This document shows, piece by piece, positions 4,746-42,102 of a stretch of DNA of 64,000 nt (its first letter is position 1; each line of letters begins with the position of its first letter). The DNA comes from Larus michahellis (lineage: Eukaryota; Chordata; Aves; Charadriiformes; Laridae). Position numbers and translations under genes: made by a program. Where the stretch lies: NCBI RefSeq assembly GCF_964199755.1, contig NC_133906.1:1798001-1862000 (forward strand). Reading direction: 5' to 3'. The notes below the pieces were generated by a model that saw nothing but the letters and a program-made list of their open reading frames with translations, did not search any database and was not told the DNA's origin.

Positions 4746-4789
4746 AGGCGAGACTCCGGGCATGACTTTTGCCTCCCTCGGCCCGCTGC

Positions 4790-5916: not shown

Positions 5917-8358
5917 ATGGCGATCGCAAGGCAAGTGCTTTGTCTCTGTGCTTTCCTCTCCCTGCCGCTCGCTCGCTCCGAGCCCATCCGCTACTCCGTA
6001 GCCGAGGAGGCGGCGAGCGGCTCCGTGGTAGCCAACGTGGCGGAGGACGCGGGGCTGTCCCCGGCGCAGCTGGCGGCTCGCGGCGCCCGCCTGGCCTCGG
6101 AGGACGGCCGGCAGCACTTTCGCTTAGACCCCGCCACCGGCCGGCTCGTCGTGGCCGAGAGGCTGGACCGGGAGGAGCTGTGCGGCCAGTCCGCTACGTG
6201 CACGCTCCCCTTCGAGCTCCTGCTGGCAAACCCGCTGCAGTTCTTTCGGGTGGAGGTGGCCGTGGAGGACATCAATGACCATTGCCCCATTTTCCCGGAG
6301 GAAAGAGTTACTATTAAGATCCCGGAAACGAGCAACCCTGGCTCGAATTTCCCTCTGGAGGGTGCTTGGGACCTGGATGTTGGCAGCAACAGCATCCAGG
6401 CTTACAGCATTTCTCCCGAGAACGAGTACTTTAGTGTCTCCTTTGGTAGTCGGAGTAAGGGTGACAAATATGTTGAACTGGTCTTGGAGAAGGCTCTAGA
6501 CAGAGAGGAGGAGGCAGAGGTGGTTTTCAGTCTCATTGCCGTGGATGGGGGCTCTCCTCCCAGGAGTGGGACCACACAAATCCACATTGTTATTTTAGAT
6601 GCAAATGACAACGCTCCTGTCTTCACAGAGGAAGGATACATTGCGCAGGTTTTGGAAAATGCGCCTGTTGGCTCTGTGGTCCTTAGAGTGACGGCTATTG
6701 ATCGGGATGAGGGAGTTAATGGGGACATCACCTATCAGTTCAGGCAAGCAGTGGGACAGAGCAACTCAGCATTCACGATCGACCCTACTAGTGGTGAAAT
6801 TAAACTCACGAAGCCTCTGGACTTTGAGGTGGCAGAGAATCATGAGCTCAGTGTGCGGGCCACGGATGGCGGTGGCCTGTCAGCTATCTGCAAGGTGTTG
6901 GTGGAGGTGGTGGACGTGAATGACAATGCACCGGAGCTGGTGGTCAACTCCTTCAACAGCCCCCTCCCCGAGAACGCATTCCCTGGAACAGTGGTTGCCC
7001 TCTTTACTGTCAGGGACCGGGATTCTGGTGCAAATGGGAAGATCTCCTGTGCCCTTGAGGACCAGCTATTGTTCTCCCTGCGTCTGGCCTATAAGAACTA
7101 CTATGAGCTTGTCACCGTCAATGCTCTGGACAGGGAGGAGATGGCACGGCACATCCTCATTGTCACAGCAGCAGACGCAGGGTCACCTCCTCTCACAACC
7201 ACCCAGACCTTCACGGTGGACATCTCCGATGTCAACGACAAGGCACCTGCCTTCAACCAGACATCATACACGATGTATGTGCGTGAGAACAACGTCCCCA
7301 TGGTGCTTGTTGGAGCTGTCAGTGCTGCAGATGCTGATGTGGGGCCCAATGCCAAGGTGTCATATTTCCTGGCACCGTCCCATCCCACAGAGCAGCCTCC
7401 CTGCTCCTGCATCTCCGTGAACTCTGAGAATGGGCACGTGTTTGTGCTGCGGCCTCTGGACTATGAGCAGGTGAAGCAGATTGATGTGCTGGTGAGTGCC
7501 TCCGATGCCGGATCTCCTCCTCTCAGTGCCAACGTCACCGTCCACCTTGTTGTGGTGGATGAGAATGACAATGCGCCTCTGGTGCTGTACCCATCACAGG
7601 ACAGCGGTCCACCATCCAGCGAGCTGGTGCCTGTATCAGCTGAGGCAGGGTACCTCATCACCAAAGTGGTGGCTGTGGATGCAGACTCGGGACAGAACTC
7701 GTGGCTCTCATACCACCTGCTGAAGGCCACCGAGCCCGGGCTGTTTGTGGTGGGTGCCCAAAGCGGAGAGGTGCGGCTGAAGAGGCCAGTGACAGAGAGG
7801 GATGCTGTGAAGCAGAAGCTTGTTCTTGTGGTGCGAGACAATGGGAAGCCACCATTGTCAGCCACTGCTGCACTGAACGCCCTCCTGCTCAATGACTTCT
7901 CAGACGTGCGCCTACCGCACAGCAGCCTGGCCACGGAGGACGAGAGTGACTCCCTGACAACCTATTTAATCATTTCCTTGACCTTTGTCTCACTCCTCTT
8001 CCTCGCATCCATGACAGCCTTCATCACTCGCAAGGTGTGCAAGAGAAAGGAGCTGAAGGCAGGGCACGTGCTTTATGGTGCTGGCAACTTGCAGAGCAGC
8101 CTGGCTGATGCAGCCACAGCAGGGACCTTGCCCCATGGCTATTGCTATGAGATCAGCCTCACAACGGGCTCTGGGAACAGCGAGTTCAAGTTCCTGAAGC
8201 CCATCCTCCCCAGCCTGCCACCACAGCAGTGCACCACGGTTGGGGGCACCCATGATGAACAGGATTTCCCCCGTGGCCCCATTACTGCAGCAGACATGGC
8301 ACCAGACAACCCTCGGACCCTCTCTGCAGAACAGTTCAATAGTCTTTCCTTTAACTAG
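5917..8358 (+). CDS. PCDHB: Beta-type clustered protocadherin, copy 1
   Basis: A single-exon 813-residue type I membrane protein for calcium-dependent homophilic cell adhesion in neurons. Signal peptide 1-21 (ends PLARS), then EC1 22-122 with the CGQSATC (CX5C) pair typical of clustered protocadherins, EC2 to 228 (DANDNAP), EC3 to 333 (DVNDNAP), EC4 to 438 (DVNDKAP), EC5 to 548 (DENDNAP), EC6, membrane segment about 683-704, and a tail with [14 protein letters not shown] as in PCDHB proteins. It ends in TAG with no splice donor, which fits beta and not alpha or gamma. I chose ATG 5917 because it has a good context (GAGATGG) and the signal peptide follows at once, although the frame is open further upstream. 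Oddities: the EC4-EC5 linker has Lys442 where the paralogues have Asn, and Cys123 (DINDHCP) replaces Ser in the EC1-EC2 linker, an extra cysteine. Member number cannot be assigned. Confidence 0.93.
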
Positions 8359-8728
8359 CATGGAGTCAGCACATACAGAGGCTTCATTCATGCCTCACGA
8401 TAGGAAGGGATCCCTGTTACAGCGTGTGGCAATGGTTCCTCCCAGGTTAATCTGCATTTGCAATTGGTGTCAGTGATTTCTGCCAAATTCTATGTCAGAA
8501 GAAATGTTGTTTCCCCCTCCAAACAAACAAACAAGCAAACAAACAAACAAAAGGACCTCAAGCCTCCTTCACCCAGGAAATAATATTCTTCAGCTGTGAA
8601 ATGCTTTGCGAGTGGGGTTAGGTCCAGGGTCACCAGTCAAGTTCTTGTCTCGCTTGCTGTTAGGCAAGCTCCTGGCCCTCTTATTCTGTGCTGTAACGCA
8701 ATGGCAAAGTCAGGCAGACAAATCCCAT
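8359..8728 (+). other. Putative 3' untranslated region of gene 1 with (AAAC)n repeat
   Basis: This 370-bp stretch after the stop is shared by copies 1-4 with few changes. A short AAAC-type microsatellite sits at 8521-8552 and varies slightly among copies. In copy 5 the homologous stretch is shorter, more diverged and has almost lost the microsatellite. Confidence 0.6.
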
Positions 8729-9349
8729 TGTCCTGGTTTCAGGTGGGATAGAGTTAATTTTCTTCCTAGTAGCTGGTAGCCTAGTAGCTGTGTTTTGGAT
8801 TTAGCATGAGAATAATGTTGATAACACACTGATGCTTTAGTGGTTGCTAAATCGTGCTTGCACTGAGTCAAGGACTTTTCAGCTTCTCATGCCCTGCCAG
8901 GGAGGAGGCTGGAGGTGCATAAGCAGTTGGGAGGAGACAGAGCCAGGACAGCTGACCCAACCTGGCCAAAGGGATAATTCATAGCATATGACATCATGCT
9001 CAGCCTATTGAGTGAGGGGAACTGGCTGGGCATCTTGGGATGCTACTGAGGAACAGGCTTGGCATAGTTTGGTTGGTTGTGAGCAGTTGTTTTTCATTTG
9101 TATCACTTGTCTTTTCTTGGGTTTTAGTTAACTTTTCGTTGTTTTTATTTTCACATTCTTTTTCTTCTTGTTGTTCTTATTATTATTTCATTTTATTTCA
9201 ATTATTAAAGATTTCTCATCTCAACCCATGAGTTTTCTCACTTTTAGTCTCTCAATTCTTTCCCACACCCCACCATGGGGCTGTCTAGGGGGGTTAGTGA
9301 GTCAATGGCTGTGTGGTGCTTAGCTGCCAGCTGGGGTTAAACCATGACA
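8729..9349 (+). mobile_element. Solo LTR, ERV-L type, behind gene 1
   Basis: The element begins TGTCCTGGTTTCAGGTGGGA and ends GGGGTTAAACCATGACA, the TG...CA form of avian ERV-L LTRs, in the same orientation as the gene. No internal retroviral sequence is attached, so this is a solo LTR fossil. An ATTAAA lies near 9205. Copies occur at the same place behind genes 2, 3 and 4. The site is empty behind gene 5 (about 42445). One insertion was thus multiplied with the genes, so it is older than the duplications of units 1-4. Target duplications are not clear. Confidence 0.88.
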
Positions 9350-9784
9350 CACGAGCTCACAGAAATGCCCATAGCCCTCGTCCCAGTTCAGAAAAGCAAG
9401 GAAGTTGTGAGTACTGTGTTACTATGTGGTGGAAGCATGGGGGGCTGGCTCTTCCCTGCGTGCTGGATGTCTCTGTCTGAGATGTTTGGGGTCTATGTGT
9501 TTTGCCTTCTTGTCACGATGTCTGTCTGGACAGCCATTGTGTGTCTGCATATGCTGCACTAGTGCTGCGTGGTGAGGCAGGGAGTTGCTCACATCAAACC
9601 CCTGTGGTGCACGCAGTTCCAGCTCATTGGGCAAGAAAGGTATTTTGTCCCTTTGAGTACAGCAGTCTCCTCTTCTCTAGGGGAGAGCAGTAAGGCACAC
9701 AAGATCTTCCTTTGGCCCACAAGATGTGGTGGGCATGCTGTCTTCCTGGGATTACCTTGGAAATATAGCAGTGCTAACAGGAGT
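9350..9784. other. Spacer between solo LTR and CR1, no gene seen
   Basis: Low-copy host spacer, with close copies at 35091-35525 and a diverged TE-free version at about 42455-42850. The short open frames are not conserved as proteins. Confidence 0.5.
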
Positions 9785-14144: not shown

Positions 14145-16586
14145 ATGGCGATCGCAAGGCAAGTGCTTTGTCTCTGTGCTTTCCTCTCCCTGCCGCTCGC
14201 TCGCTCCGAGCCCATCCGCTACTCCGTAGCCGAGGAGGCGGCGAGCGGCTCCGTGGTAGCCAACGTGGCGGAGGACGCGGGGCTGTCCCCGGCGCAGCTG
14301 GCGGCTCGCGGCGCCCGCCTGGCCTCGGAGGACGGCCGGCAGCACTTTCGCTTAGACCCCGCCACCGGCCGGCTCGTCGTGGCCGAGAGGCTGGACCGGG
14401 AGGAGCTGTGCGGCCAGTCCGCTACGTGCACGCTCCCCTTCGAGCTCCTGCTGGCAAACCCGCTGCAGTTCTTTCGGGTGGAGGTGGCCGTGAAGGACAT
14501 CAATGACCATTCCCCCATTTTCCCAGTGGAACAAGTAGTTTTTAAGATCCTGGAAACGAGCAACCCTGGCTCGCGTTTCCCTCTGGGGGGTGCTGGGGAC
14601 CTGGATGTTGGCAGCAACAGCATCCAGGCTTACAGCATTTCTCCCGAAAACGAGTACTTTAGTGTCTCCTTTGCAAGTCAGAGTGAGGACGACAAATATG
14701 TTGAACTGGTCTTGGAGAAGGCTCTAGACAGAGAGGAGGAAGGAGAGGTGGTTTTCAGTCTCATTGCCATGGATGGGGGCTCTCCTCCCAGGAGTGGGAC
14801 CACACAAATCCACATTGTTATTCTAGATGTAAATGACAACTCTCCTGTCTTCACACAGAAGCTGTATGTTGGGCAGGTTTTGGAAAATGCCCCTGTGGGC
14901 TCTGTTGTTCTCAGAGTGGTGGCAACTGATCAGGATGTGGGAGTTAATGGGGACATCACCTATCAGTTCAGGCAAGCAGTGGGCCAGAGTAGGTCATTAT
15001 TTGTGATTGACCCCACGAGTGGTGAAATTAAACTCGCGATGCCTCTGGACTTTGAGGTGGCAGAGAATCATGAGCTCAGTGTGCGGGCCACGGATGGCGG
15101 TGGCCTGTCAGCAATCTGCAAGGTGTTGGTGGAGGTGGTGGATGTGAACGACAATGCACCGGAAGTGGTGGTAAGTTCCTTCAACAGCCCCCTCCCTGAG
15201 AACGCATTCCCTGGAACAGTGGTTGCTCTCTTTACTGTCAGGGACCGGGATTCTGGTGCGAATGGGAAGATCTCCTGTGCCCTTGAGGATCAGCTATTGT
15301 TCTCCCTGCGTCTGGCCTATAAGAACTACTATGAACTGGTGACTGTGAGTATGCTGGACAGGGAGGAGATGGCACGGCACATCCTCATAGTCATAGCAGC
15401 AGACGCAGGGTCACCTCCTCTCACAACCACCCAGACCTTCAAGGTGGACATCTCCGATGTCAACGACAATGCACCTGCCTTCAACCAGACATCATACACG
15501 ATGTATGTGCGTGAGAACAATGTCCCCATGGTGCTTGTTGGAGCTGTCAGTGCTGCAGATGCTGATGTGGGGCCCAATGCCAAGGTGACATATTTCCTGG
15601 CACCGTCCCATCCCACAGAGCAGCCTCCCTGCTCCTGCATCTCCGTGAACTCTGAGAATGGGCACGTGTTTGTGCTGCGGCCTCTGGACTATGAGCAGGT
15701 AAAGCAGATTGATGTCTTGGTGAGTGCCTCCGATGCGGGATCTCCTCCTCTCAGTGCCAGTGTCACCGTCCATCTTGTTGTGGTGGATGAGAATGACAAT
15801 GCACCAATGCTGCTGTACCCATCACAGGACAGCGGTCCACCATCCAGCGAGCTAGTGCCTGTATCAGCTGAGGCAGGGTACCTCATCACCAAAGTGGTGG
15901 CTGTGGATGCAGACTCGGGACAGAACTCGTGGCTCTCATACCACCTGCTGAAGGCCACCGAGCCCGGGCTGTTTGTGGTGGGTGCCCAAAGCGGGGAGGT
16001 GCGGCTGAAGAGGCCAGTGACAGAGAGGGATGCTGTGAAGCAGAAGCTTGTTATTGTGGTGTGAGACAATGGGAAGCCACCATTGTCAGCCACTGCTGCA
16101 CTGAGTGCACTCCTGCTCAATGATTTCTCAGCAGTGCGCCGACCACCCACCGGCCTGGCCACGGAGGACGAGAGTGACTCCCTGACAACCTATTTAATCA
16201 TTTCCTTGACCTTTGTCTCACTCCTCTTCCTCGCATCCATGACAGCCTTCATCACTCGCAAGGTGTGCAAGAGAAAGGAGCTGAAGGCAGGGCACGTGCT
16301 TTATGGTGCTGGCAACTTGCAGAGCAGCCTGGCTGATGCAGCCACAGCAGGGACCTTGCCCCATGGCTATTGCTATGAGATCAGCCTCACAACGGGCTCT
16401 GGCAACAGCGAGTTCAAGTTCCTGAAGCCCATCCTCCCCAGCCTGCCACCACAGCAGTGCACCACGGTTGGGGGCACCCATGATGAACAGGATTTCCCCT
16501 GTGGCCCCATTACTGCAGAGGACATGGCACCAGAGAACCCCGGGACCCTCTCTGCAGAACAGTTCAATAATCTTTCCTTTAACTAG
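14145..16586 (+). pseudogene. PCDHB: Beta-type protocadherin copy 2, with one in-frame stop
   Basis: The same 813-codon layout as copy 1 and no indel, but codon 640 (16062-16064) is TGA where the four paralogues have CGA (Arg). This is a C-to-T change at a CpG. Translation would stop in EC6, leaving 639 residues with no membrane segment or tail. The 173 codons after the stop remain open and as well conserved as in the paralogues, so the change looks recent. It could also be a segregating allele, an assembly error, or yield a secreted ectodomain. EC2-EC3 variants: [38 protein letters not shown] and VSMLDREE. Lys replaces Glu just before DINDH at the end of EC1. Promoter and EC1 match the other copies. 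Confidence 0.85.
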
Positions 16587-16956
16587 CATGGAGTCAGCAC
16601 ATACAGAGGCTTCATTCATGCCTCACGATAGGAAGGGATCCCTGTTACAGCATGTGGCAATGGTTCCTCCCAGGTTAATCTGCATTTGCAATTGGTGTCA
16701 GTGATTTCTGCCAAATTCTATGTCAGAAGAAATTTTGTCTCCCTCTCCAAACAAACAAACAAGCAAACAAAGAAACAAAAGGACCTCAAGCCTCCTTCAC
16801 CCAGGAAATAATATTCTTCAGCTGTGAAATGCTTTGCGAGTGGGGTTAGGTCCAGGGTCACCAGTCAAGTTCTTGTCTCGCTTGCTGTTAGGCAAGCTCC
16901 TGGCCCTCTTATTCTGTGCTGTAACGCAATGGCAAAGTCAGGCAGACAAATCCCAT
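16587..16956 (+). other. Putative 3' region of copy 2 with AAAC-type microsatellite
   Basis: Same structure as 8359-8728. The AAAC repeat lies at about 16749-16778. Confidence 0.55.
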
Positions 16957-17590
16957 TGTCCTGGTTTCAGGTGGGATAGAGTTAATTTTCTTCCTAGTAG
17001 CTGGTAGCCTAGTAGCTGTGTTTTGGATTTAGCATGAGAATAATGTTGATAACACACTGATGCTTTAGTGGTTGCTAAATGGTGCTTGCACTGAGTCAAG
17101 GACTTTTCAGCTTCTCATGCCCTGCCAGTGAGGAGGCTGGAGGTGCATAAGCAGTTGGGCGGGGACAGAGCCAGGACAGCTGACCCAACCTGGACAAAGA
17201 GATAATTCATAGCATATGACATCATGCTCTGCATATATAGTGGTGGGAAGTGGCCGGGCATCTGAGAATGCTACTCAGGAAGAGACTGGGCATCAGTCCT
17301 TTGATAGTGAGCAGTTGTTTTTCATTTGTATCCCTTGTCTTTTCTTGTGTTTTAGTTATCTTTTGGTTGTTGTTGTTATTTTCCTTTAATTATTATTAGT
17401 ATTAGTTTTTGTATTAGTATTAGTATTTTAATTTTTTATTTCAATTCTTAAACTGTTTTCATATTAACACAAGAGCTTTGTCACTTTTACTCTTCCAATT
17501 CTATCCCCCTTCGCACTGTGGGTGGAAGGGAGGGGCAGTGAGTGAATGGCTGTGTGGTGCTTAGCTGCTGACTGGGGTTACACCACGACA
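16957..17590 (+). mobile_element. Solo LTR, ERV-L type, behind copy 2
   Basis: Begins TGTCCTGGTTTCAGG and ends ACACCACGACA. Its offset from the start codon is the same as for the LTR behind gene 1. Its right half resembles the LTR behind gene 3 more than those behind genes 1 and 4, with a CATATATA motif near 17231. Confidence 0.88.
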
Positions 17591-17850: not shown

Positions 17851-19720
17851 GCAAGAAGGGTATTTTCAACCATCACCCACAGATCCCTTTCTGCAGGGCT
17901 GCTCTCCAGCCACTCCTCTCCCAATGTATATACATACACAGTACTACTCTATCCCAGGTGCAGAATCTGGCCTTTGGACTTCTTAAGTGTCATGCCGTTG
18001 ATGATTGCACAATGCTCCAATCCATCTAGATCCCTCTGCAAGGCCTCTTTTTCCTTCAGAGAGGGAGCAGCACCTTCCTGTTTGGTATCATCAGCAAAGT
18101 TGCTAATGGTACCTTCAACTCCTGCACCCAGATCAGTGAAAATAGTATTGAACAGGACTAGGCCTAGAATTGAACCCTGAGGAACGCCGCTGGTGACATG
18201 TCACCCGCCAGACGTTGCTCCCCTATTCACTGCAACCCTTAGAGCCCTGCCCTTCAGCTGGTTCTTCACCCTGCTGATAGTGAACCCGCTCATCTCACAG
18301 TTGAACAATGTATCCAGAAGAATTCTCCGAGGGATGATATCTACAGTCACACAAGAATCCAGAAAAACTACATCCACAGCCTTCCTTCACGCACGGGACA
18401 GGTGACCTCATAATAGAAGAGTGTGGACCTGTTGGAGTGAGTCCAGAGGAGGGCCATGAGGATGACCAGAGCACTGGAGCACCTTTCCTATGAAGAGAGA
18501 CTGAGAGAGTTGGGGTTGTTCAGCCTGGAGAGGAGAAGGCTTCAGGGAGACCTTATAGAAGCCTTCCAGTATGTAAAGGAGGCCTCCAGCAAAGATGGGA
18601 AGGGACTCTTTATTAAGGAGTGTAGCAATAGGAAAAAGGAGAATGGTTTTAAACTGAAAGAGGGGAGATATAGATTAGATATTAGGAAGACATTCTTTAC
18701 TGTGAGGGTGATGAGACACTGGAACGGGTTTCCCAGGGAAGTTGTGGATACCCCTTCCCTGTAAGTTTTCAAGACCAGGCTGGATGGGGCTTTGAGCAAC
18801 CTGGTCTAGTGGGAGGTGTCCCTGCCCATGGCAGGAGTGGTGGATCTAGGTGATCTTTAAGGTGCCTTCGAAATCAAACCATTCTATGATTTTATGACAT
18901 CAAAGCAATTAAACAGGACTTTCCCTTGGTGAATCCATGTTGACTGCGCCTGATGATTGCATTGTTCTTTCAGTACCTTTCAGTAGTACTCAGTATCATC
19001 TTTAATCTATAATTTTCCCAGGGTCTGAGGTTGGACTAACATGTCAGTAGTTTCCTGGGTCTTCCCTCTTGCCCTTCTTGTAAATTGGAAGAACATTGGC
19101 TAGCTTCCAGTCAGCAGGGACCCCTCCCCAGTCTCCCAAGGCCTTTGGCAGCTGATCAAGTGGTGTCTTGCTGTAACACTAACTAGCACCTTCAGTAATC
19201 TGGGACAAATCCCATCAGGCGCCACGGACTTGTGAACATTCCGCTGATGCATCCAATTCCTGACAATTTCAGCATCCACAAATGGAAAGTCACTGTTCCT
19301 GCATTCGTGGTCCTCTGACTCAGTGGACTGGGCAGCCCAAAGTTCATTTGCAGTATTAAAGACTGAGGGAAGAAAAGCATTGAATGCCTCCTCTTCTTCT
19401 TCATCCCTGTCGGTCAGGTTACTGTCTTCAACAAGTATCAGTCTCATGTTTTCTTTAGACCTCCTCTTGATATTGACATACTTTAAAAAGCCTTGCTTGT
19501 TGTCTGACACAACGCTGGCCAGTTTCCACTCTAATTGTGCTTTGTGCATTCATGTCTTCTCCCTGCATATACAAACCGCAGCTCTGCAGTCTTCCTGCAA
19601 AGCCTGACCTTGCTTCCCGAGATCACACAATTTCTTTTTCCTCTTGAGCTCCAGGAGGAGTTCCCTGTTTGGGCAAGCTGCTCTTCTGCCCTGTTTGCTT
19701 GACTGTTGACACAGTGGAAT
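17851..19720 (-). mobile_element. Minus-strand CR1, shortened form, with nested CR1
   Basis: Corresponds to the inner and right part of 9785-12290. Its left part is missing relative to the long form. Positions from 18281 on duplicate the start of the window. Confidence 0.85.
18420..18897 (+). mobile_element. CR1 3' end nested in the minus-strand CR1
   Basis: Copy of 140-617 at +18,280, ending TTCTATGATTTTATGA. Confidence 0.9.
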
Positions 19721-20873
19721 TGCTTGTTTGTAGACTGTAACTGTTCAGAGTTGTGAAAACATGCTCATTGCCTTTGTGTGCATTGTAAGGAAACTGCACA
19801 AGTTGCTTCAAAGGACTTTGTCTGAAGGTAGAATTGAGATGAACTAGGAAAAAGCCCATTGAGTTTTCTCTGATCATTGTTCCTGAGTTCAGAGGTTTAT
19901 TGATGGGAGGGGAAATCTGTCCCACCAGGATTTCCTGGGTTTGTGTTAGAGCATTTGCATTCTGCTTTCTGCCCTTTCTCCTTCTACTTTGTGAACTGTG
20001 TTTGAGCATTGTCTTACCTCTTCCCCTTAAGAAGGACTGTCACTCCATGTATAATATTGGATTCTTTAAAAGAAGGCTGTTTGAATGTTTGAATGGCACA
20101 GAATATTTGGAAACGTGACGTTGTGTTGTGCTGCAGTTATTAATTGTAAAGCAGGATACCCTTGAGTGTAAAAATGAAATAAAGAGAACACCTGAATGCC
20201 TTGTGTGGAGACAGTAGTCTTTGTTGAGTTGTTTGTTGTTTTTTTTTTCTGGGGAAGCTCTGTCAAGGTTTTTCCAAAGGTTGTGAGCTTTTTTCTCATT
20301 TTTGTCCCTTGGCTGATGTAAATTTGAGCAGGTACATTTCTTCAGTTTGGCAATGAGGCCTGTATCGCATTGAGTGAAATTGTGGGGAGCACGGCTTTGC
20401 TGACAGACCTGTATGGGTCTTCTGAGCACTGAGTTGCTGGTTGCTACAGGGCCCAGTTAGACCCAGTCAGCGGAAACTGGCCCCCACCCTAACAGGGACC
20501 GTGGGTGTGCAAAGGCCTCTGCAAAGCAGTGAGGTTGGGGATAGTGACCTATCCCACTCTTCCTAGAGTGCCAGCTGCAGAGGGCAACTGGGAAGGCTTT
20601 GAGCACAAAGTATTCTGATTCTAAATGTTTTGATGGATGACAGCATACATGTTGCTTTGGAGAAGTCTTTCGGGGAGTCCCAGGAGGTTGGGAATTGGTG
20701 GATGAAGAACTACTACCAGGGATACGGTTCACTCTCAGGAAACGCAGAGCACTACAGGCATCTGCTCCACAAAGGCCTCAAGAAAAGGATAAGGCCTGAG
20801 GACAGGCCGCTGTAGTGATGCTGACCAGAAGACAGTTGTACAGCGAGGGGTGAATGATATACTCTCCAGCTAA
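19721..20873. other. Duplicated spacer upstream of copy 3, no gene seen
   Basis: Same as 1441-2593 at +18,280. No gene is supported. The AATAAA-containing motif lies near 20178. Confidence 0.5.
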
Positions 20874-21168
20874 CCTGAGAGGAATCATAGAATCGTTTGG
20901 TTTGGAAGAAATCCTTGAGACCATTGAGTCCTGCCGTTAACCAAACACTACCAAGTCCACCACTAAACCCTGTCCCTCAGCACCATGTCCGGGGACGGCA
21001 GACACTTCCTTTGGCAGCCCGTGTTAATGCTTGGCAATCCTTTTGATGAAGAAGTTGTTCATAATATCCAGTCTAAGCTTCCCCTGTCACAACTTGGGGC
21101 CATTTCCTCTCATCCTATCACTTCATACTTGGGAAAAAAGACCGACACCTACCTCCTTAAATCTTTCA
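20874..21168 (-). mobile_element. CR1 3'-end fragment, minus strand
   Basis: Copy of 2594-2888 at +18,280. Confidence 0.85.
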
Positions 21169-21777
21169 GGCACAGGCCTGTGCTGTCCTGTGCTGTGTTG
21201 TGTGGCACAAATCCTTTGGTGGGAAGATAAACTCAGCTCATTGTAATCGCAGAGGCTGCAGGCAAGACACCTGCAAGCAAGAAGTCCACCTGCCAAAGTC
21301 TTTTACTGCAGCTGTAGAAACGATCAATAGAATTGCTTTCTTGCAGGGAAGTCCTAAGATGGCTTGAATGACTGAAACAGGGACACTCTGTCTTTTCTAT
21401 GACCAGGGTCTGCACGGCATGTTGTGCATGGCTGCCGTTCTTTCATGAAGCTCCTCTGCTCAGGGTTCTCCACATCTACCCTTCCAGTAGGGTGATCTAT
21501 AATAAAGGGAATTGTGAATGACATTTTAGAGAGTGGGCATGTTTCTCTTGCTGAGATCACAAGGAACCAGCAGCTCCTGGTATAAAAGTGCTGGTTCTCG
21601 GGTCGTTCCAGTTCGAAGGTCCAGGTGTCTGATGCAGTTCATAACCGGATGGTTTCTTACAGTTTGTGACCTATGAAAGGGGACATGGCATTTCCTGCAT
21701 TGGAGAGCCAGCACACACGGCTGAGCTTTCCCAAGGGGCTCTTTGCAGGTGCCCTTTAGGAAGGAAAACTTCTAGGC
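21169..21777. other. Duplicated spacer, no gene seen
   Basis: Copy of 2889-3497 at +18,280. Confidence 0.5.
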
Positions 21778-23025
21778 CAGGTAATAGACAGCCCTAGCAC
21801 AGGGGAGGCTTTTAACCCCCTGGAAACTGCTTTCAGGGACAAGGGAGCACAAGAAAGCTGGCAGATGTTTAAGGATGCTTTCCACAGAGTGCAACAGCTC
21901 TTGATCCCCACATGTAAGAAATGAGGGAAGGAAGGCAAGACACCAGCATGGCTGAGTAAAGACCTGCTTGTCAGACTAAAGGGCAAGAAGGAAACGCACA
22001 GTCAGTGTACAGGGACCTTGCCCAGTTTTGTAGGGATGCGGTCAGGAAGATCAAGGTGTGGCTGAAGCTGAACACAAAGTACAACAAGAAGGGCTTCTAG
22101 CGGTATGTCAGACAGAAAAGGAGGGTCAAAGAAAGTGTACCTCCGCTGATGAACACAAGTGGCAAACGGGTAACAACAGGCAAGGAGAAGGCTGAGGCAA
22201 TCAGCAACTTTTTTTGCTTCAGTTTTCACTGTCAATCTCTCTTCCCACACTTCTCGAGCGGATGGACCTGAAGGCAGGGACCGGGGGAGCAAAGTCCCTC
22301 ACGCTGTAAGAGAAGATCAGACCACCTGAGAAACCTGAACATAGAGAAGTCTCTGGGACCTGAGAAGATGCCTTCCGGAGTCCTGAGGGAATTGGCTGAT
22401 GTGGTTGCTAAGCCACTCTCCATGATATTTGAAATGTCATGGCAGTGAGGTGAAGTCCCTGGTGACTTGAAAAGGGAAACATTACACCCATTTTTAAAAA
22501 GAGTAGAAAGGTGGACCCTGGGAAGTACAACTTGTCATCCTCCCCTCTGTGACTGGGAACACGATGAAACAGATCCTCCTAGAAACTATGCTAAGGCACA
22601 TGGAGGGCAGAGATGCGTGTCAAGACAGCCAGCATGGTTTCACCAACGTCAAGTCTTGCCTGACCAACCTAGTGATGTGGGTCAACTTATAGGACGGAAT
22701 GACTGTATGAGAGGACAAGGGAAGACTGGACTTCTGTAAGGCCTTTGTCACGGTTCCCCACAACATACCTCTCTCTAAGTTTGGACACCTGGATTTCACG
22801 GATGGAGTATTTGGTGGGTAAGGAATTGTCTGGATGGTCCTATCCACAGAGTCATGGTCAAGTCTCAATGTCTGGATGGAGATGAGTGGCAAGTGGTGCC
22901 CCTCAGGGGTCCATATGGGGACAAGTCCTGTTTGACACCTTCATCAACGACATAGTGGGATCAAGTGCACTCCCAGCACGGTTGCAAATGGCACCAGGCT
23001 GAGTGGTACGGCTGACACGCCTGCA
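21778..23025 (+). mobile_element. CR1 LINE ORF2 remnant, plus strand
   Basis: Copy of 3498-4745 at +18,280, with one base difference noticed (21895). It is broken. Confidence 0.85.
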
Positions 23026-23069
23026 AGGCGAGACTCCGGGCATGACTTTTGCCTCCCTCGGCCCGCTGC

Positions 23070-23366
23070 TACGCTGACAGCGACTTCACCGCCGACAGCG
23101 TGGACGTGGCCGGCACGGTCACTCTGTGGCCGGCTGAGCGCTACGAAGTGTGCCTGAGCAGCGGCTCGGGGAGGAGGCAGTTCCAGTTCCTGAGGCCCGT
23201 CCTGTGCAGCCCGCAAAGCAGCGTTGCAGCGGGGCCGGGAAAGAAGAACGAAGATCCCCTGTGCAGCTGGCAGGCCGCGGGCGAGAGGGAAGGCGAGGCG
23301 GGGAGCACGGCCCCTCTGCTCGTTCAGCCGCCGGACTGGCCGGACGACAGGCGCGTCCATGCGTGA
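23070..23366 (+). pseudogene. Orphan beta-type protocadherin tail, second copy
   Basis: Copy of the 4790-5086 remnant, with the same motifs SVDVAGTVTL, ERYEVCLSSGSG and FQFLRPVL and the same closing stop. No ectodomain is attached. Confidence 0.75.
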
Positions 23367-23890
23367 GCCTTGTTGAAACCCGCCTGCCTTCCCCGTCCTC
23401 AGCCCGAGACTCCTGAGTAGATGTAGTGCCGTGCTGGGCTGTTACCTGCGTGCTGCCCCTGCGGGGGTTTCTGCCGGGCTTCCCCGGCCGGGGAAGGCGG
23501 CTCGATCCCTCCGGGCTGAGACTCCGCCCCACGGTGCTCCAGGAAATGCCCTGCCCCTCCCTCGACGCCGTGCTCCTGGAAGTGAAGGGAGCAGCCGTCC
23601 GGGAGCCAAGAGCGTCCACCTGCCGGAGGGCTCTGTGCAACGGGCATCGGGGAAAGAGACGGGGCAGCTGCCGGCGCTGCCCGTGTGCTCGGAGTCAAGC
23701 GTCGGCCCCGCAGGATTCCCGGCGCCCCTGCGCTGCGCTTCCCTCGCCGGCGCCGAGTGCGCGCGTCCTGCCGCGGGGCCCCGAGGCGGGCGAGCGGCCG
23801 GAGCCGCGCGTGTGCGCGCGGGCCCGTGTGCCGGTGTGAGGCGGCAGCGCGGGCAGCGGGCGGCGGCGGGCGCAGTCCCGCCGCGGGCCG
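23367..23890 (+). promoter_or_regulatory. GC-rich promoter region of gene 3
   Basis: Copy of 5087-5610. No gene is supported, and CpG density is high. Confidence 0.55.
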
Positions 23891-23916
23891 CAGGGTGGTG
23901 CTCCCGGCCAAGGCGG
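23891..23916 (+). promoter_or_regulatory. Candidate CSE/CTCF element of gene 3
   Basis: Identical to 5611-5636, about 306 bp before ATG 24197. Confidence 0.55.
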
Positions 23917-24196
23917 CGCCGAGCGGCTGCGGGCGGGGAGGCGGCCCAGCCCAGCCCGCCGCTACACAGCCCAGCCCAGCCCGGCCGAGCCGAGCCGGGC
24001 AACGGCGGCGAGCGGCGGCGAGCGGTGCCCCGTGCCAGCGGCTGCCGGGCCAGGGCGGCCGCGCTCCGTGCTGGCATCCGGAGTCGGCGAGAGGGAGGCC
24101 GCCCGACCGCCGCCCCGCCGCGCTGCTGCCGGGCGCCGCTCTCCGCGGAGGAGTGCGCGGGCGATCCGCGAGACGGAGGCTGTCCGCCGGCCCGAG

Positions 24197-26638
24197 ATGG
24201 CGATCGCAAGGCAAGTGCTTTGTCTCTGTGCTTTCCTCTCCCTGCCGCTCGCTCGCTCCGAGCCCATCCGCTACTCCGTAGCCGAGGAGGCGGCGAGCGG
24301 CTCCGTGGTAGCCAACGTGGCGGAGGACGCGGGGCTGTCCCCGGCGCAGCTGGCGGCTCGCGGCGCCCGCCTGGCCTCGGAGGACGGCCGGCAGCACTTT
24401 CGCTTAGACCCCGCCACCGGCCGGCTCGTCGTGGCCGAGAGGCTGGACCGGGAGGAGCTGTGCGGCCAGTCCGCTACGTGCACGCTCCCCTTCGAGCTCC
24501 TGCTGGCAAACCCGCTGCAGTTCTTTCGGGTGGAGGTGGCCGTGGAGGACATCAATGACTATTCCCCCGTTTTCCCAGTGGAAAAAGTCGTTTTTAAGAT
24601 CCCGGAAACGAGCAACCCTGGCTCGCGTTTCCCTCTGGAGGGTGCTCGGGACCTGGATGTTGGTAGCAACAGCATCCAGGCTTATAGCATTTCTCCCGAG
24701 AACGAGTACTTCAGTGTCTCCTTTGCAAGTCAGAGTGAGGACGACAAATATGTTGAACTGGTCTTGGAGAAGGCTCTAGACAGAGAGGAGGAAGGAGAGG
24801 TGGTTTTCAGTCTCATTGCTAGGGATGGGGGCTCTCCTCCCAGGAGTGGGACCACACAAATCCACATTGTTATTTTAGATGCAAATGACAACTCTCCTGT
24901 CTTCACACAGAAGCTGTATGTTGGGCAGGTTTTGGAAAATGCCCCTGTGGGCTCTGTTGTTCTCAGAGTGGTGGCAACTGATCAGGACGTGGGAGTTAAT
25001 GGGGACATCACCTATCAGTTCAGCGAAGCAGTGGGCCAGAGTAGGTCATCATTCATGATCGACCCTACTAGTGGTGAAATTAAAGTCACGAAGCCTCTGG
25101 ACTTTGAGGTGGCAGAAAATCATGAGCTCAGTGTGCGGGCCACGGATGGCGGTGGACTGTCAGCAATCTGCAAGGTGTTAGTGGAGGTGGTGGATGTGAA
25201 TGACAATGCACCGGAAGTGGTGGTAAGTTCCTTCAACAGCCCCATCCCCGAGAACGCATTACCCAGAACGGTGGTTGCCCTCTTTACTGTCAGGGACCGG
25301 GATTCTGGTGCGAATGGGAAGATCTCCTGTGCCCTTGAGGACCAGCTATTGTTCTCCCTGCGTCTGGCCTATAAGAACTACTATGAGCTTGTCACCGTCA
25401 ATGCTCTGGACAGGGAGGAGATGGCACGGCACATCCTCATTGTCACAGCAGCAGACGCAGGGTCACCTCCTCTCACAACCACCCAGACCTTCACGGTGGA
25501 CATCTCCGATGTCAACGACAATGCACCTGCCTTCAACCAGACATCATACACGATGTATGTGCGTGAGAACAATGTCCCCATGGTGCTTGTTGGAGCTGTC
25601 AGTGCTGCAGATGCTGATGTGGGGCCCAATGCCAAGGTGTCATATTTCCTGGCACCGTCCCATCCCACAGAGCAGCCTCCCTGCTCCTGCATCTCCGTGA
25701 ACTCTGACAATGGGCACGTGTTTGTGCTGCGGCCTCTGGACTATGAGCAGGTGAAGCAGATTGATGTCTTGGTGAGTGCCTCCGATGCGGGATCTCCTCC
25801 TCTCAGTGCCAACGTCACCGTCCACCTTGTTGTGGTGGATGAGAATGACAATGCGCCTCTGGTGCTGTACCCATCACAGGACAGCGGTCCACCATCCAGC
25901 GAGCTGGTGCCTGTATCAGCTGAGGCGGGGTACCTCATCACCAAAGTGGTGGCTGTGGATGCAGACTCGGGACAGAACTCGTGGCTCTCATACCACCTGC
26001 TGAAGGCCACCGAGCCCGGGCTGTTTGTGGTGGGTGCCCAAAGCGGAGAGGTGCGGCTGAAGAGGCCAGTGACAGAGAGGGATGCTGTGAAGCAGAAGCT
26101 AGTTGTTGTGGTGCGAGACAATGGGAAGCCACCGCTGTCAGCCACTGCGGCACTGAGTGCACTCCTGCTCAATGACTTCTCAGAAGTGCGCCTACCACCC
26201 ACCAGCCTGGCCACGGAGGACGAGAGTGACTCCCTGACAACCTATTTAATCATTTCCTTGACCTTTGTCTCACTCCTCTTCCTCGCATCCATGACAGCCT
26301 TCATCACTCGCAAGGTGTGCAAGAGAAAGGAGCTGAAGGCAGGGCATGTGCTTTATGGTGCTGGCAACTTGCAGAGCAGCCTGGCTGATGCAGCCACAGC
26401 AGGGACCTTGCCCCATGGCTATTGCTATGAGATCAGCCTCACAACGGGCTCTGGCAACAGCGAGTTCAAGTTCCTGAAGCCCATCCTCCCCAGCCTGCCA
26501 CCACAGCAGTGCACCACGGTTGGGGGCACCCACGATGAACAGGATTTCCCCTGTGGCCCCATTACTGCAGGGGACAGGGCACCAGAGAACCCCGGGACCC
26601 TCTCTGGAGAACAGTTCAATAGTCTTTCCTTTAACTAG
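24197..26638 (+). CDS. PCDHB: Beta-type clustered protocadherin, copy 3
   Basis: 813 residues with the same domain plan as copy 1: signal peptide 1-21, EC1-EC6, membrane segment about 683-704, tail ending SFN then TAG. Although its 5' flank is almost identical to that of copy 1, the ectodomain is not. EC2 starts VEKVVFKI and has [12 protein letters not shown]3 starts [12 protein letters not shown] with VATDQDVG; then [15 protein letters not shown]; the EC4 start is [20 protein letters not shown]. From VNALDREE onward it agrees with copies 1 and 4. All linkers keep DxND. The tail variant is [20 protein letters not shown]. It is a likely neuronal surface receptor; expression is not shown by the sequence. 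Confidence 0.93.
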
Positions 26639-30921: not shown

Positions 30922-31095
30922 AGCATCATGGAATCATTTAGGTTGGAGAAGATCCTTGAGACCATCGAGTCCAACTGTTAAGCTTACATTACCAAGTCCA
31001 CCACTGAACCCTGTCCCTAAGCACCACGTCCACGGACGCTGGGCGCTTCCGTGGGCGGCCAGTGGTAAGGCTTGACAATCCTTTTCGTGAAGAAA
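30922..31095 (-). mobile_element. CR1 3'-end fragment cut by a deletion, minus strand
   Basis: Starts CATCATGGAATCATTTAGG and ends at the promoter block, as before copies 2 and 5. Confidence 0.8.
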
Positions 31096-31365
31096 TATTT
31101 CCGAGCGCTGGGCAACAGGGATCGGGGGAAGAGACGGGGCAGCAGCCGGCGCTGCCCGTGTGCTCGGAGTCAAGCGTCGGCCCCGCAGGACTCCCGGCGC
31201 TTCTGCGCTGCGATTCCCTCGCCGGCGCCGAGTGCGCGCGTCCTGCCGCGGAGCCCCGAGGCGGGCGACCGGCCGGAGCCGCGCGTGTGCGCGCGGGCCC
31301 GTGTGCCGGTGCGAGGCGGCAGCGCGGGCAGCGGGCGGCGGCGGGCGCAGTCCCGCCGCGGGCCG

Positions 31366-31391
31366 CAGGGTGGTGCTCCCGGCCAAGGCGG
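31366..31391 (+). promoter_or_regulatory. Candidate CSE/CTCF element of gene 4
   Basis: Same bases as 5611-5636, about 311 bp before ATG 31677. Confidence 0.55.
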
Positions 31392-31676
31392 CGCCGAGCG
31401 GCTGCGGGCGGGGAGGCGGCCCAGCCCAACCCGCCGCTACCCAGCCCAGCCCGGCCTAGCCGAGCCGAGCCGAGCCGGGCAACGGCGGCGAGCGGCGGCG
31501 AGCGGTGCCCCGTGCCAGCGGCTGCCGGGCCAGGGCGGCCGCGCTCCGTGCCGGCATCCGGAGTCGGCGAGAGGGAGGCCGCCCGACCGCCGCCCCGCCG
31601 CGCTGCTGCCGGGCGCCGCTCTCCGCGGAGGAGTGCGCGGGCGATCCGCGAGACGGAGGCTGTCCGCCGGCCCGAG

Positions 31677-34118
31677 ATGGCGATCGCAAGGCAAGTGCTT
31701 TGTCTCTGTGCTTTCCTCTCCCTGCCGCTCGCTCGCTCCGAGCCCATCCGCTACTCCGTAGCCGAGGAGGCGGCGAGCGGCTCCGTGGTAGCCAACGTGG
31801 CGGAGGACGCGGGGCTGTCCCCGGCGCAGCTGGCGGCTCGCGGCGCCCGCCTGGCCTCGGAGGACGGCCGGCAGCACTTTCGCTTAGACCCCGCCACCGG
31901 CCGGCTCGTCGTGGCCGAGAGGCTGGACCGGGAGGAGCTGTGCGGCCAGTCCGCTACGTGCACGCTCCCCTTCGAGCTCCTGCTGGCAAACCCGCTGCAG
32001 TTCTTTCGGGTGGAGGTGGCCGTGGAGGACATCAATGACCATTCCCCCGTTTTCCCGGAGGAAGTAGTCATTTTTAAGATCCTGGAAACGAGCAACCCTG
32101 GCTCACGTTTCCCTCTGGAGGGTGCTCGGGACCTGGATGTTGGCAGCAACAGCATCCAGGCTTACAGCATTTCTCCCGAGAACGAGTACTTTAGTGTCTC
32201 CTTTGGTAGTCGGAGGAACGGTGACGAATATGTTGAACTGGTCTTGGAGAAGGCTCTAGACAGAGAGGAGGAAGGAGACGTGGATTTAAGTCTCATTGCC
32301 ATGGACGGAGGCTCTCCTCCCAGGAGTGGGACCACACAAATCCACATTATTGTTCTAGATGTAAATGACAATGCTCCTGTCTTCAAAGAGGAAGGATATA
32401 TTGCGCAGATTTTGGAAAATGCGCCTGTTGGCTCAGTGGTCCTTAGAGTGACGGCTATTGATCGGGATGAGGGAGTTAATGGGGACATCACCTATCAGTT
32501 CAGGCAAGCAGTGGGACAGAGCAACTCAGCATTCACGATCGACCCTACTAGTGGTGAAATTAAAGTCACGAAGCCTCTGGACTTTGAGGTGGCAGAGAAT
32601 CATGAGCTCAGTGTGCGGGCCACGGATGGCGGTGGCCTGTCAGCTATCTGCAAGGTGTTGGTGGAGGTGGTGGACATGAATGACAATGCACCTGAGCTGG
32701 TGGTCAACTCCTTCAACAGCCCCCTCCCCGAGAACGCATTCCCTGGAACAGTGGTTGCCCTCTTTACTGTCAGGGACAGGGATTCTGGTGCTAATGGGAA
32801 GATCTCCTGTGCCCTTGAGGACCAGCTATTGTTCTCCCTGCGTCTGGCCTATAAGAACTACTATGAGCTTGTCACCGTCAATGCTCTGGACAGGGAGGAG
32901 ATGGCACGGCACATCCTCATTGTCACAGCAGCAGACGCAGGGTCACCTCCTCTCACAACCACCCAGACCTTCACGGTGGACATCTCCGATGTCAACGACA
33001 ATGCACCTGCCTTCAACCAGACATCATACACGATGTATGTGCGTGAGAACAATGTCCCCATGGTGCTTGTTGGAGCTGTCAGTGCTGCGGATGCTGATGC
33101 GGGGACCAACGCCAAGGTGACATATTTCCTGGCACCGTCCCATCCCACAGAGCAGCCTCCCTGCTCCTGCATCTCCGTGAACTCTGACAATGGGCACGTG
33201 TTTGTGCTGCGGCCTCTGGACTATGAGCAGGTGAAGCAGATTGATGTCTTGGTGAGTGCCTCCGATGCGGGATCTCCTCCTCTCAGTGCCAACGTCACCG
33301 TCCACCTTGTTGTGGTGGATGAGAATGACAATGCGCCTCTGGTGCTGTACCCATCACAGGACAGCGGTCCACCATCCAGCGAGCTGGTGCCTGTATCAGC
33401 TGAGGCAGGGTACCTCATCACCAAAGTGGTGGCTGTGGATGCAGACTCGGGACAGAACTCGTGGCTCTCATACCACCTGCTGAAGGCCACCGAGCCCGGG
33501 CTGTTTGTGGTGGGTGCCCAAAGCGGGGAGGTGCAGCTGAAGAGGCCAGTGACAGAGAGGGACGCTGTGAAGCAGAAGCTTGTTGTTGTGGTGCGAGACA
33601 ATGGGCAGCCTCCGCTGTCCGCCACTGCTGCACTGAACGCCCTCCTTCTCAATGACTTCTCAGAAGTGCGCCGACCACCCACCGGCCTGGCCACGGAGGA
33701 TGAGAGTGACTCCCTGACAACCTATTTAATCATTTCCTTGACCTTTGTCTCACTCCTCTTCCTCGCATCCATGACAGCCTTCATCACTCGCAAGGTGTGC
33801 AAGAGAAAGGAGCTGAAGGCAGGGCACGTGCTTTATGGTGCTGGCAACTTGCAGAGCAGCCTGGCTGATGCAGCCACAGCAGGGACCTTGCCCCATGGCT
33901 ATTGCTATGAGATCAGCCTCACAACGGGCTCTGGCAACAGCGAGTTCAAGTTCCTGAAGCCCATCCTCCCCAGCCTGCCACCACAGCAGTGCACCACGGT
34001 TGGGGACACCCATGATGAACAGGTTTTCCCCCGTGGCCCCATTACTGCAGCAGACATGGCACCAGACAACCCCGGGACCCTCTCTGGAGAACAGTTCAAT
34101 AGTCTTTCCTTTAACTAG
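31677..34118 (+). CDS. PCDHB: Beta-type clustered protocadherin, copy 4
   Basis: 813 residues with the same plan as copy 1. EC2 variants are EEVVIFKI and [10 protein letters not shown], then [15 protein letters not shown]3 starts [13 protein letters not shown] with TAIDRDEG and SNSAFTID, the same block class as copy 1. The EC4 start is ELVVNSFN, with [10 protein letters not shown]5 has the private [13 protein letters not shown]. In EC6, Gln replaces Arg in GEVQLKRPV, and RDNGQPP replaces RDNGKPP. The tail carries the [12 protein letters not shown] variant shared only with copy 5. I chose ATG 31677 by homology; the frame is open for another 205 codons upstream, through the promoter block, which is a GC effect. 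Confidence 0.93.
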
Positions 34119-39660: not shown

Positions 39661-42102
39661 ATGGCGATCGCAAGGCAAGTGCTTTGTCTCTGTGCTTTCC
39701 TCTCCCTGCCGCTCGCTCGCTCCGAGCCCATCCGCTACTCCGTAGCCGAGGAGGCGGCGAGCGGCTCCGTGGTAGCCAGCGTGGCGGAGGACGCGGGGCT
39801 GTCCCCGGCGCAGCTGGCGGCTCGCGGCGCCCGCCTGGCCTCGGAGGACGGCCGGCAGCACTTTCGCTTAGACCCCGCCACCGGCCGGCTCGTCGTGGCC
39901 GAGAGGCTGGACCGGGAGGAGCTGTGCGGCCAGTCCGCTACGTGCACGCTCCCCTTCGAGCTCCTGCTGGCAAACCCGCTGCAGTTCTTTCGGGTGGAGG
40001 TGGCCGTGGAGGACATCAATGACCATTCCCCCATTTTCCCGGAGGAACGAGTTACTATTAAGATTGTGGAAAGGAGCGACCTGGGCTCGCGTTTCCCTCT
40101 GGAGGGTGCTCGGGACCTGGATGTTGGCAGCAACAGCATCCAGGCTTACAGCATTTCTCCCGAGAACGAGTACTTCAGTGTCTCCTTTGCAAGTCAGAGT
40201 GAGGACGACAAATATGTTGAACTGGTCTTGGAGAAGGCTCTAGACAGAGAGGAGGAAGGAGAGGTGGTTTTCAGTCTCATTGCCATGGATGGGGGCTCTC
40301 CTCCCAGGAGTGGGACCACACAAATCCGCATTGTTATTCTAGATGTAAATGACAACTCTCCTGTCTTCACACAGAAGCTGTATGTTGGGCAGGTTTTGGA
40401 AAATGCCCCTGTGGGCTCTGTTGTTCTCAGAGTGGTGGCAACTGATCAGGATGTGGGAGTTAATGGGGACATCACCTATCAGTTCAGGCAAGCAGTGGGC
40501 CAAAGCAACTCAGCATTCATGATCGACCCTACTAGTGGTGAAATTAAAGTCACGAAGCCTCTGGACTTTGAGGTGGCAGAGAATCATGAGCTCAGTGTGC
40601 GGGCCACGGATGGCGGTGGCCTGTCAGCTATCTGCAAGGTGTTGGTGGATGTGGTGGATGTGAATGACAATGCACCTGAGCTGGTGGTCAACTCCTTCAA
40701 CAGCCCCCTCCCCGAGAACGCATTCCCTGGAACAGTGGTTGCCCTCTTTACTGTCAGGGACCGGGATTCTGGTGCGAATGGGAAGATCTCCTGTGCCCTT
40801 GAGGATCAGCTATTGTTCTCCCTGCGTCTGCCCTATAAGAATTACTATGAACTGGTGACTGTGAGTATGCTGGACAGGGAGGAGATGGCACGGCACATCC
40901 TCATTGTCACAGCAGCAGACGCAGGATCACCTCCTCTCACAACCACCCAGACCTTCACAGTGGACATCTCCGATGTCAACGACAATGCACCTGCCTTCAA
41001 CCAGACATCATACACGATGTATGTGCGTGAGAACAATGTCCCCATGGTGCTTGTTGGAGCTGTCAGTGCTGCAGATGCTGATGTGGGGCCCAATGCCAAG
41101 GTGTCATATTTCCTGGCACCATCCCATCCCACAGAGCAGCCTCCCTGCTCCTGCATCTCCGTGAACTCTGAGAATGGGCACGTGTATGTGCTGCGGCCTC
41201 TGGACTATGAGCAGGTGAAGCAGATTGATGTCTTGGTGAGTGCCTCCGATGCCGGATCTCCTCCTCTCAGTGCCAACGTCACCGTCCACCTTGTTGTGGT
41301 GGATGAGAATGACAATGTGCCACTGGTGCTGTACCCATCACAGGACAGCGGTCCACCATCCAGCGAGCTGGTGCCTGTATCAGCTGAGGCGGGGTACCTC
41401 ATCACCAAAGTGGTGGCTGTGGATGCAGACTCAGGACAGAACTCGTGGCTCTCATACCACCTGCTGAAGGCCACCGAGCCCGGGCTGTTTGTGGTGGGTG
41501 CCCAAAGCGGGGAGGTGCGGCTGAAGAGGCCAGTGACAGAGAGGGATGCTGTGAAGCAGAAGCTCGTTGTTGTGGTGCGAGACAATGGGAAGCCTCCGCT
41601 GTCAGCCACTGCGGCACTGAACGCCCTCCTGCTCAATGACTTCTCAGACGTGCGCATACCTCACAGCAGCCTGGCCACGGAGGATGAGAGTGACTCCTTG
41701 ACAACCTATTTAATCATTTCCTTGACCTTTGTCTCACTCCTCTTCCTCGCATCCATGACAGCCTTCATCACTCGCAAGGTGTGCAAGAGAAAGGAGCTGA
41801 AGGCAGGGCACGTGCTTTATGGTGCTGGCAACTTGCAGAGCAGCCTGGCTGATGCAGCCACAGCAGGGACCTTGCCCCATGGCTATTGCTATGAGATCAG
41901 CCTCACAACGGGCTCTGGCAACAGCGAGTTCAAGTTCCTGAAGCCCATCCTCCCCAGCCTGCCACCACAGCAGTGCACCACGGTTGGGGACACCCATGAT
42001 GAACAGGTTTTCCCCCGTGGCCCCATTACTGCAGCAGACATGGCACCAGACAACCCCGGGACCCTCTCTGGAGAACAGTTCAATAGTCTTTCCTTTAACT
42101 AG
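39661..42102 (+). CDS. PCDHB: Beta-type clustered protocadherin, copy 5
   Basis: 813 residues with the same plan as copy 1. Ser replaces Asn in [10 protein letters not shown], the only EC1 change seen among the five copies before the final linker. EC2 combines EERVTIKI (as copy 1) with the private IVERSDLGS and with [10 protein letters not shown] (as copies 2 and 3). EC3 starts [12 protein letters not shown], then [10 protein letters not shown]4 combines ELVVNSFN (as copies 1 and 4) with VSMLDREE (as copy 2). The EC5-EC6 linker is DENDNVP. The tail has [12 protein letters not shown] as in copy 4. Its downstream flank alone lacks the solo LTR and the CR1 nest, so this unit keeps the ancestral 3' arrangement. 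Confidence 0.93.

Follow-up and report, generated by a model that had tools for sequence, protein, structure and literature searches.

Uniform EC1 and diverse, mosaic EC2-EC3 domains in a tandem array of beta-type protocadherin genes of the gull Larus michahellis

A stretch of 64,000 nucleotides of Larus michahellis DNA (contig NC_133906.1, positions 1,798,001 to 1,862,000, of assembly GCF_964199755.1; hereafter the window, whose numbering is used) carries five tandem, co-oriented protocadherin genes of the beta type, genes 1 to 5. Each is 2442 bp from a shared ATG to the stop, with zero indels among them (Table 1); the listed open reading frames (ORFs) of genes 2 and 5 start 5' of the shared ATGs at 14145 and 39661. 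The uninterrupted 813-residue frames of genes 1, 3, 4 and 5 show the beta-type architecture of six cadherin repeats (EC1 to EC6), one membrane segment and a short tail in one exon. A domain scan of gene 1 returned Cadherin (five stretches), Cadherin_2 and Cadherin_C_2, and genes 2 to 5 were assigned to the beta type through their identity to this one scanned gene. The nearest named relatives are also beta-type, many of the 120 database matches listed being called, for example, protocadherin beta-15-like or beta-4-like, names which are annotations. Homophilic trans-binding through EC1-EC4 would be expected from the resemblance of the sequences to solved ectodomains, among them those of gamma-B4, beta-8 and beta-6. 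The original prediction of five near-identical protocadherins needs amending for gene 2, which is truncated by a stop at codon 640, a TGA where the other four copies have CGA (C to T within a CpG); its membrane segment and tail sit past this stop. A 639-residue protein encoded by the window, P0164, is present in the protein database. Gene 2 may encode a soluble ectodomain or may be a young pseudogene.

It had been proposed that EC2, EC3 and spots of EC4-EC5 switch between a few variants among the copies, in combinations that one tree without exchange cannot give. All of the motifs quoted in support were found in genes 1 to 5. At the EC3 start, the 12-residue motifs of gene 1 and of gene 4 stand against that of genes 2, 3 and 5. 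The EC4 start reads ELVVNSFN in genes 1, 4 and 5 vs EVVVSSFN in genes 2 and 3, and the EC4 middle reads VNALDREE in genes 1, 3 and 4 vs VSMLDREE in genes 2 and 5, so that the two EC4 blocks occur in all four combinations. Switching between few variants describes EC3 and EC4 better than EC2, which is rich in differences confined to one copy. There were 203 variable coding sites among the five genes, 86 of them biallelic and informative. A statistic of the pairwise homoplasy index (PHI) type gave 0.353, the permuted mean being 0.448 and none of 5000 permutations as low, so that neighbouring sites are compatible more often than shuffled ones. The Hudson-Kaplan minimum for the 86 sites was 19 recombination intervals; a single tree is rejected, as had been claimed. 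Synonymous sites alone also rejected one tree (31 of 5000 permutations; 11 intervals). When the five coding exons were examined with our own GENECONV-like run test, which is not the GENECONV program, 12 shared tracts, with lengths bracketed at 34-404 bp, had global P<0.05. These include, in exon positions, tracts between genes 2 and 5 at 669-842, genes 2 and 3 and genes 3 and 5 at 687-791, genes 1 and 4 at 760-888, and genes 3 and 4 at 1117-1412. Gene 5 lies in a 3.1-kb segment that, coding DNA included, is 92.5-93.1% like the other copies, whereas the adjoining downstream flank is 15-33% different.

Because the shared blocks carry synonymous sites, and because synonymous sites reject one tree, it is DNA that was exchanged, and selection for shared residues is no explanation. 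Exchange between paralogues is therefore supported by the site incompatibility, the synonymous sites within blocks and the contrast between gene 5 and its flank, and it is the part of the earlier interpretation that stood. An alternative is that recent tandem duplication was followed by ordinary divergence, with convergent selection on EC2-EC3 residues producing the shared motifs. The array does hold a near-identical duplicated spacer, as recent duplication would leave. We nevertheless regard convergence as extremely unlikely, since synonymous changes accompany the motifs, since synonymous sites by themselves reject one tree, and since the incompatible patterns cluster along the gene.

Table 1. 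Coordinates in the window of the beta-type genes, of sequence blocks within gene 1, and of two spacers. Genes are delimited by the shared ATG and the stop.
Feature	Coordinates	Strand	Basis	Remarks
Gene 1	5917..8358	+	ORF, domain scan, database matches	Beta-type protocadherin, 813 aa, single open frame
Gene 2	14145..16586	+	alignment	Premature TGA, codon 640, at 16062-16064; predicted end in EC6 upstream of membrane segment
Gene 3	24197..26638	+	ORF, motifs, flanks, tracts	813 aa; EC3 start as genes 2 and 5; EC4 middle as genes 1 and 4
Gene 4	31677..34118	+	ORF, motifs, flanks	813 aa
Gene 5	39661..42102	+	flank comparison	813 aa counted from shared ATG; 3' flank 15-33% different per 100 bp from other copies
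CpG-rich stretch, gene 1	5317..6250	+	CpG scan	Over promoter, signal peptide and EC1; 5317 is the start of the examined stretch, not a measured edge
EC1 (gene 1 as example)	5980..6276	+		2 of 297 nucleotides variable; 0 of 63 fourfold sites
EC3 first-half block (gene 1)	6613..6756	+		21 informative sites, every one genes 1, 4 vs 2, 3, 5; 9 synonymous
EC4 start block (gene 1)	6936..6948	+		5 informative sites, genes 2, 3 vs 1, 4, 5; 3 synonymous
EC4 middle block (gene 1)	7062..7125	+		10 informative sites, genes 2, 5 vs 1, 3, 4; 6 synonymous
Spacer 5' of gene 1	1..5692	.		2 differences, no gaps, vs 18281-23972
Spacer 5' of gene 3	18281..23972	.	alignment	Near-identical to 1-5692

The statement that EC1 is almost invariant was likewise borne out (Table 1; the EC borders are of our own setting). 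Three observations go beyond the original prediction: EC1 is without any synonymous difference, the contrast between EC1 and EC2 is common to other birds, and gene 2 is truncated. Fourfold sites were variable at 0 of 77 positions in the signal peptide plus EC1, at 18 of 76 in EC2 plus EC3 (Fisher P 1.1e-6), and at 32 of 248 from EC4 to the tail (P 1.3e-4 vs signal peptide plus EC1). Mean synonymous divergence (dS) was 0.000 in EC1, 0.116 in EC2, 0.188 in EC3, 0.153 in EC4, 0.055 in EC5, 0.107 in EC6, 0.071 in the linker plus membrane segment and 0.029 in the cytoplasmic part. The transition is abrupt: only two sites vary from -66 to +363 relative to the ATG, and 16 of the 55 bases from +364 are variable. 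GC content at third codon positions (GC3) is 0.91 in EC1 and 0.55 in each of EC2 and EC3. Two signs of concerted evolution, locally lowered synonymous divergence between paralogues (in EC1) and phylogenetically incompatible blocks, are thus present in the array. Positive selection as the main cause was considered and is unsupported, since, wherever a domain has synonymous change, its mean ratio of nonsynonymous to synonymous divergence (dN/dS) stays under 1 (averages by the Nei-Gojobori method, not a test of single sites); at 0.60 in EC2, the highest among the EC domains, and 0.33 in EC3, the ratios do not establish positive selection.

To place the gull genes among those of other birds, the 120 matches listed, two of them the window's own, were reduced to 118 species-labelled sequences; the 103 of 770-830 residues plus the five window genes made 108, of which 106 remained after a gap filter. 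The aligned set carries 53 species labels, and 21 species have two or more sequences. The source database groups sequences at 90% identity, and the matches listed lack near-identical paralogues along with many other proteins. Among these, divergence between paralogues relative to that between genera was lower in EC1 than in EC2 and EC3 in 21 of 21 species and 18 of 18 genera. Median ratios over the 21 species were 0.03 for EC1, 0.66 for EC2, 0.74 for EC3, 0.42 for EC4, 0.53 for EC5, 0.28 for EC6 and 0.52 for the membrane segment plus tail. In 20-residue windows the ratio was 0.04-0.13 over residues 21-120, 0.56-0.85 over residues 121-260 and 0.18-0.71 afterwards, putting the step in birds at residue 120/121; the step in the gull lies near the 3' edge of the CpG-rich stretch. 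Of the 74 sequences that have a paralogue from their own species, a fraction of 0.90 had a conspecific nearest neighbour in EC1, 0.45 in EC2, 0.49 in EC3 and 0.56-0.72 elsewhere. FastTree domain trees required 55 changes of species label for EC1 (minimum 52), 76 for EC2, 69 for EC3 and 61-67 for the rest. Paralogues are hence more alike within than between species in EC1, at the protein level. Amino-acid PHI tests gave P<0.05 in three of seven species: Larus (0.0185), Patagioenas (0.003) and Phaenicophaeus (0 of 2000).

These comparisons bear on the possibility that EC1 is identical because both the protein and a regulatory CpG island overlapping EC1 are strongly constrained, with relaxed or diversifying selection in EC2-EC3 and little conversion. 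Such constraint would fit the overlap of the CpG-rich stretch with EC1, and relaxation would fit the EC2 ratio given above. Under constraint, however, EC1 is not expected to diverge between genera (mean identity 0.867) while differing little within species (means of 0.938-1.000 among the 13 species represented by at least three sequences, the gull row including the paralogue P0006 described below), and block sharing includes synonymous sites. We consider this explanation distinctly unlikely.

A different concern is the assembly. The near-identity of the two 5.7-kb spacers ends within the promoters of genes 1 and 3, with 8 differences in the next 102 bases (5693-5794). A recent duplication with its edge in the CpG-rich promoter would give this result, as would a false duplication. 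If haplotypes, or collapsed and re-expanded repeats, had been misjoined, the mosaics would be chimeras; two differences between spacers are what alleles or a false duplication would show, and misassembly from near-identical stretches occurred in the fugu clusters (PMC1852091). Against this, DNA downstream of gene 1 resembles that of gene 4 (about 97-100% per 250 bp, 8350 to 11600), DNA downstream of gene 2 resembles that of gene 3 (about 92-99%, 16335 to 20085), and the gene 5 flank is close to none. Further, P0006, a full-length L. michahellis paralogue with 42-71 differences from each of genes 1 to 5, is distinct from all five, which places one or more further copies beyond the window. The EC1/EC2 contrast in all 21 species backs the domain pattern, though not the gene order here. 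Artefact is therefore, in our judgement, an unlikely source of the mosaics. The differing flanks of the copies and the recurrence of the domain pattern in other birds suggest that the main result does not depend on the spacers.

In our view the array has very probably been shaped by gene conversion that recurs between loci, keeping EC1 homogeneous while EC2-EC3 remain varied mosaics; the spacers would also have undergone a degree of duplication or unequal exchange. Conversion between neighbouring copies would be strongest over the signal peptide and EC1, and frequent enough to keep EC1 uniform within a species; the near-identity of EC1 across the copies of a species would then be concerted evolution, arising because conversion acts most strongly there. 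In EC2-EC3 conversion would be rarer, or selected against, so that different variants are retained there and shuffled in short blocks. As to what might seed EC1 homogenisation, birds are without PRDM9 and their recombination occurs at promoter-like features (PMC5519329). In the zebra finch, recombination overlaps CpG islands beyond chance, and conversion is GC-biased with tracts averaging about 32 bp (PMC12047795). In mammals, promoters of clustered protocadherins are reportedly flanked by prominent CpG islands (PMC10463633). On these grounds we propose that breaks at promoter islands may seed the homogenisation of EC1.

In the gull, CpG observed/expected is 0.83-1.27 per 75-bp bin within the CpG-rich stretch, 0.54 in the bin from +300 and 0-0.72 beyond (means of genes 1 to 4). 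The stretch closes in the bin +300 to +375, and dense variation opens at +364. Amino-acid composition was compared by way of GARP and FYMINK, residue classes used for codon-GC shift. GARP and FYMINK fractions in EC1 were 0.35 and 0.10 in birds vs 0.21 and 0.20 in mammalian beta proteins, a shift in birds toward residues with GC-rich codons; EC2 composition was alike in the two (0.24 and 0.23). The comparison is rough, pairing 27 of the 108 bird-set sequences with 11 chosen mammal proteins, mostly long predicted entries, one of which (5 aligned EC1 residues) was dropped from the EC1 mean. We infer a role for the island from the coincidence of CpG edge and divergence step in this one species and from the GC-shifted composition. 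A scan for CTCF-like motifs gave loose matches only, most of them within coding DNA, and was not used. More speculatively, meiosis itself may divide the bird beta array into two parts: a 'constant' EC1, in which GC-biased conversion starting from promoter CpG islands overwrites one copy with another, and 'variable' cassettes of EC2-EC3 that are reshuffled as short blocks. A recombination landscape without PRDM9 would then have left recognition codes mostly to the EC2:EC3 contact, unlike in mammalian beta genes; this we offer as a tentative possibility, somewhat less probable than its opposite.

Several results weigh against conversion centred on EC1 or against its seeding at islands. The promoter had been described as fixed, and it is not: genes 1 to 4 differ by 17% at -600 to -525 and by 0.9-6% from there to -75, with no difference from -75 to the ATG, so that the CpG-rich stretch 5' of -75 is still 0.9-17% different. 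For coding DNA as a whole, CpG density and diversity gave rho -0.31 (P 0.054); without EC1, rho was 0.03. Given these upstream differences and the lack of correlation outside EC1, CpG content alone is no predictor of homogenisation. At the level of species, the nearest neighbour was conspecific more often in EC1 than in EC2+EC3 in 15 of 21, less often in one (Buteo) and equally often in five, including the gull, and the EC1 ratio was higher in Neopsephotus (0.47), Patagioenas (0.45) and Amazona (0.40). The amino-acid PHI test was not significant in Caloenas (0.076), Columba livia, Lathamus and Pithys, and the Larus value fails correction for seven tests. The DNA evidence comes from the window in one assembly of one individual, that for other birds from proteins. 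Nor does PRDM9 sort the cases; mouse has PRDM9. Xenopus tropicalis is without it, and none was detected in the anole (PMC5519329), and in published tables EC1 dS is not near zero in either (0.26-1.67 and 0.139-0.294). Mouse alpha genes have a low EC1 dS of 0.31 vs 2.08 in EC2 (PMC4978886). Lack of PRDM9 is therefore neither sufficient nor necessary for a homogenised EC1.

With EC1 as a shared contact, mosaics of EC2-EC3 may give the copies different homophilic specificities, and published work on EC2:EC3 makes it plausible that exchange reshuffles recognition. That work assigns much of the specificity to EC2:EC3, with EC1:EC4 mostly setting affinity (PMC5001838) or carrying specificity as well (PMC5106212). 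Since gull EC1 is near-uniform, what separates the copies must be sought in EC2 and EC3, with a small contribution from EC4. The contact positions of PMC5106212 were transferred by hand via alignments, with the gamma-B4 chain as stand-in, and K338 and R340 landed where expected. Gamma-A contact positions were left aside: their numbering is doubtful, residue 206 having landed on an aspartate of a calcium site. The four mappable gamma-B EC2:EC3 contacts are residues 134, 148, 277 and 320, of which 148 and 277 vary, each in one copy only. With 51 of 218 positions variable in EC2 plus EC3, this partial hand mapping of four contacts shows no enrichment. In the Phe-X10-Phe loop (275-286), 4 of the 10 inner positions vary.

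Downstream of the beta genes are two gamma-like variable exons, genes 6 and 7 (54055-56490 and 59362-61845), 42-43% identical to gene 1. All five beta frames close with a stop codon, while genes 6 and 7 cross donor-like CAG/GT before stopping, judged from sequence alone; the frames run over CAG/GTACGT and CAG/GTGTGT, respectively, as gamma variable exons would. Two segments, 42859-44025 and 51874-53661, are about 69-81% like the beta spacers and are possibly remnants of lost beta genes or shared repeats. Long open frames on the minus strand at 30989-31747 (antisense to the gene 4 promoter region), 60580-61950 and 60635-62122 (both antisense to gene 7) are probably by-products of high GC content.

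If correct, the proposed mechanism would link the sites of meiotic DNA breaks with the region of a neuronal recognition molecule that is free to vary. In birds, where recombination favours CpG islands, EC1 would stay uniform and EC2-EC3 would vary; in fish and mammals other regions are converted. Bird beta isoforms would then be told apart only by EC2:EC3 and a small part of EC4, which would offer a natural way to test the dispute over EC1:EC4 specificity (PMC5001838 vs PMC5106212). Protocadherin conversion that spares EC2-EC3 is already known, from fish, and for human genes conversion has been reported in EC6 and cytoplasmic parts. A literature search mainly of titles and abstract beginnings, with some passages, turned up no paper on beta protocadherin genes of birds and no description of EC1 as the domain homogenised most in them, which is not proof of absence.

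The fugu and zebrafish subclusters resemble the gull array in that homogenisation of tandem paralogues is regional, GC3 is higher where conversion occurred and EC2-EC3 are reportedly homogenised only seldom (PMC1852091). In fugu, however, it is the 3' half that is homogenised, from EC4 or EC5 on, whereas in the gull EC1 is the most homogenised and the step lies at EC1/EC2. In human and mouse, as in the gull, EC2-EC3 hold most of the diversity, and EC1 dS is low in the mouse alpha genes (PMC4828864, PMC4978886). Unlike in the gull, human conversion reportedly affects EC6 and cytoplasmic parts and spares EC1-EC3 (PMC4828864), and dS of mouse beta genes is 1.08 in EC1, 1.66 in EC2 and 1.43 in EC3 (PMC4978886). 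The anole, a sauropsid, also has tandem beta genes in a subcluster; its dS of 0.139 in EC1, 0.179 in EC2 and 0.126 in EC3 indicates an EC1 that is not homogenised, and little conversion is reported there (PMC2764143), in contrast to the gull.

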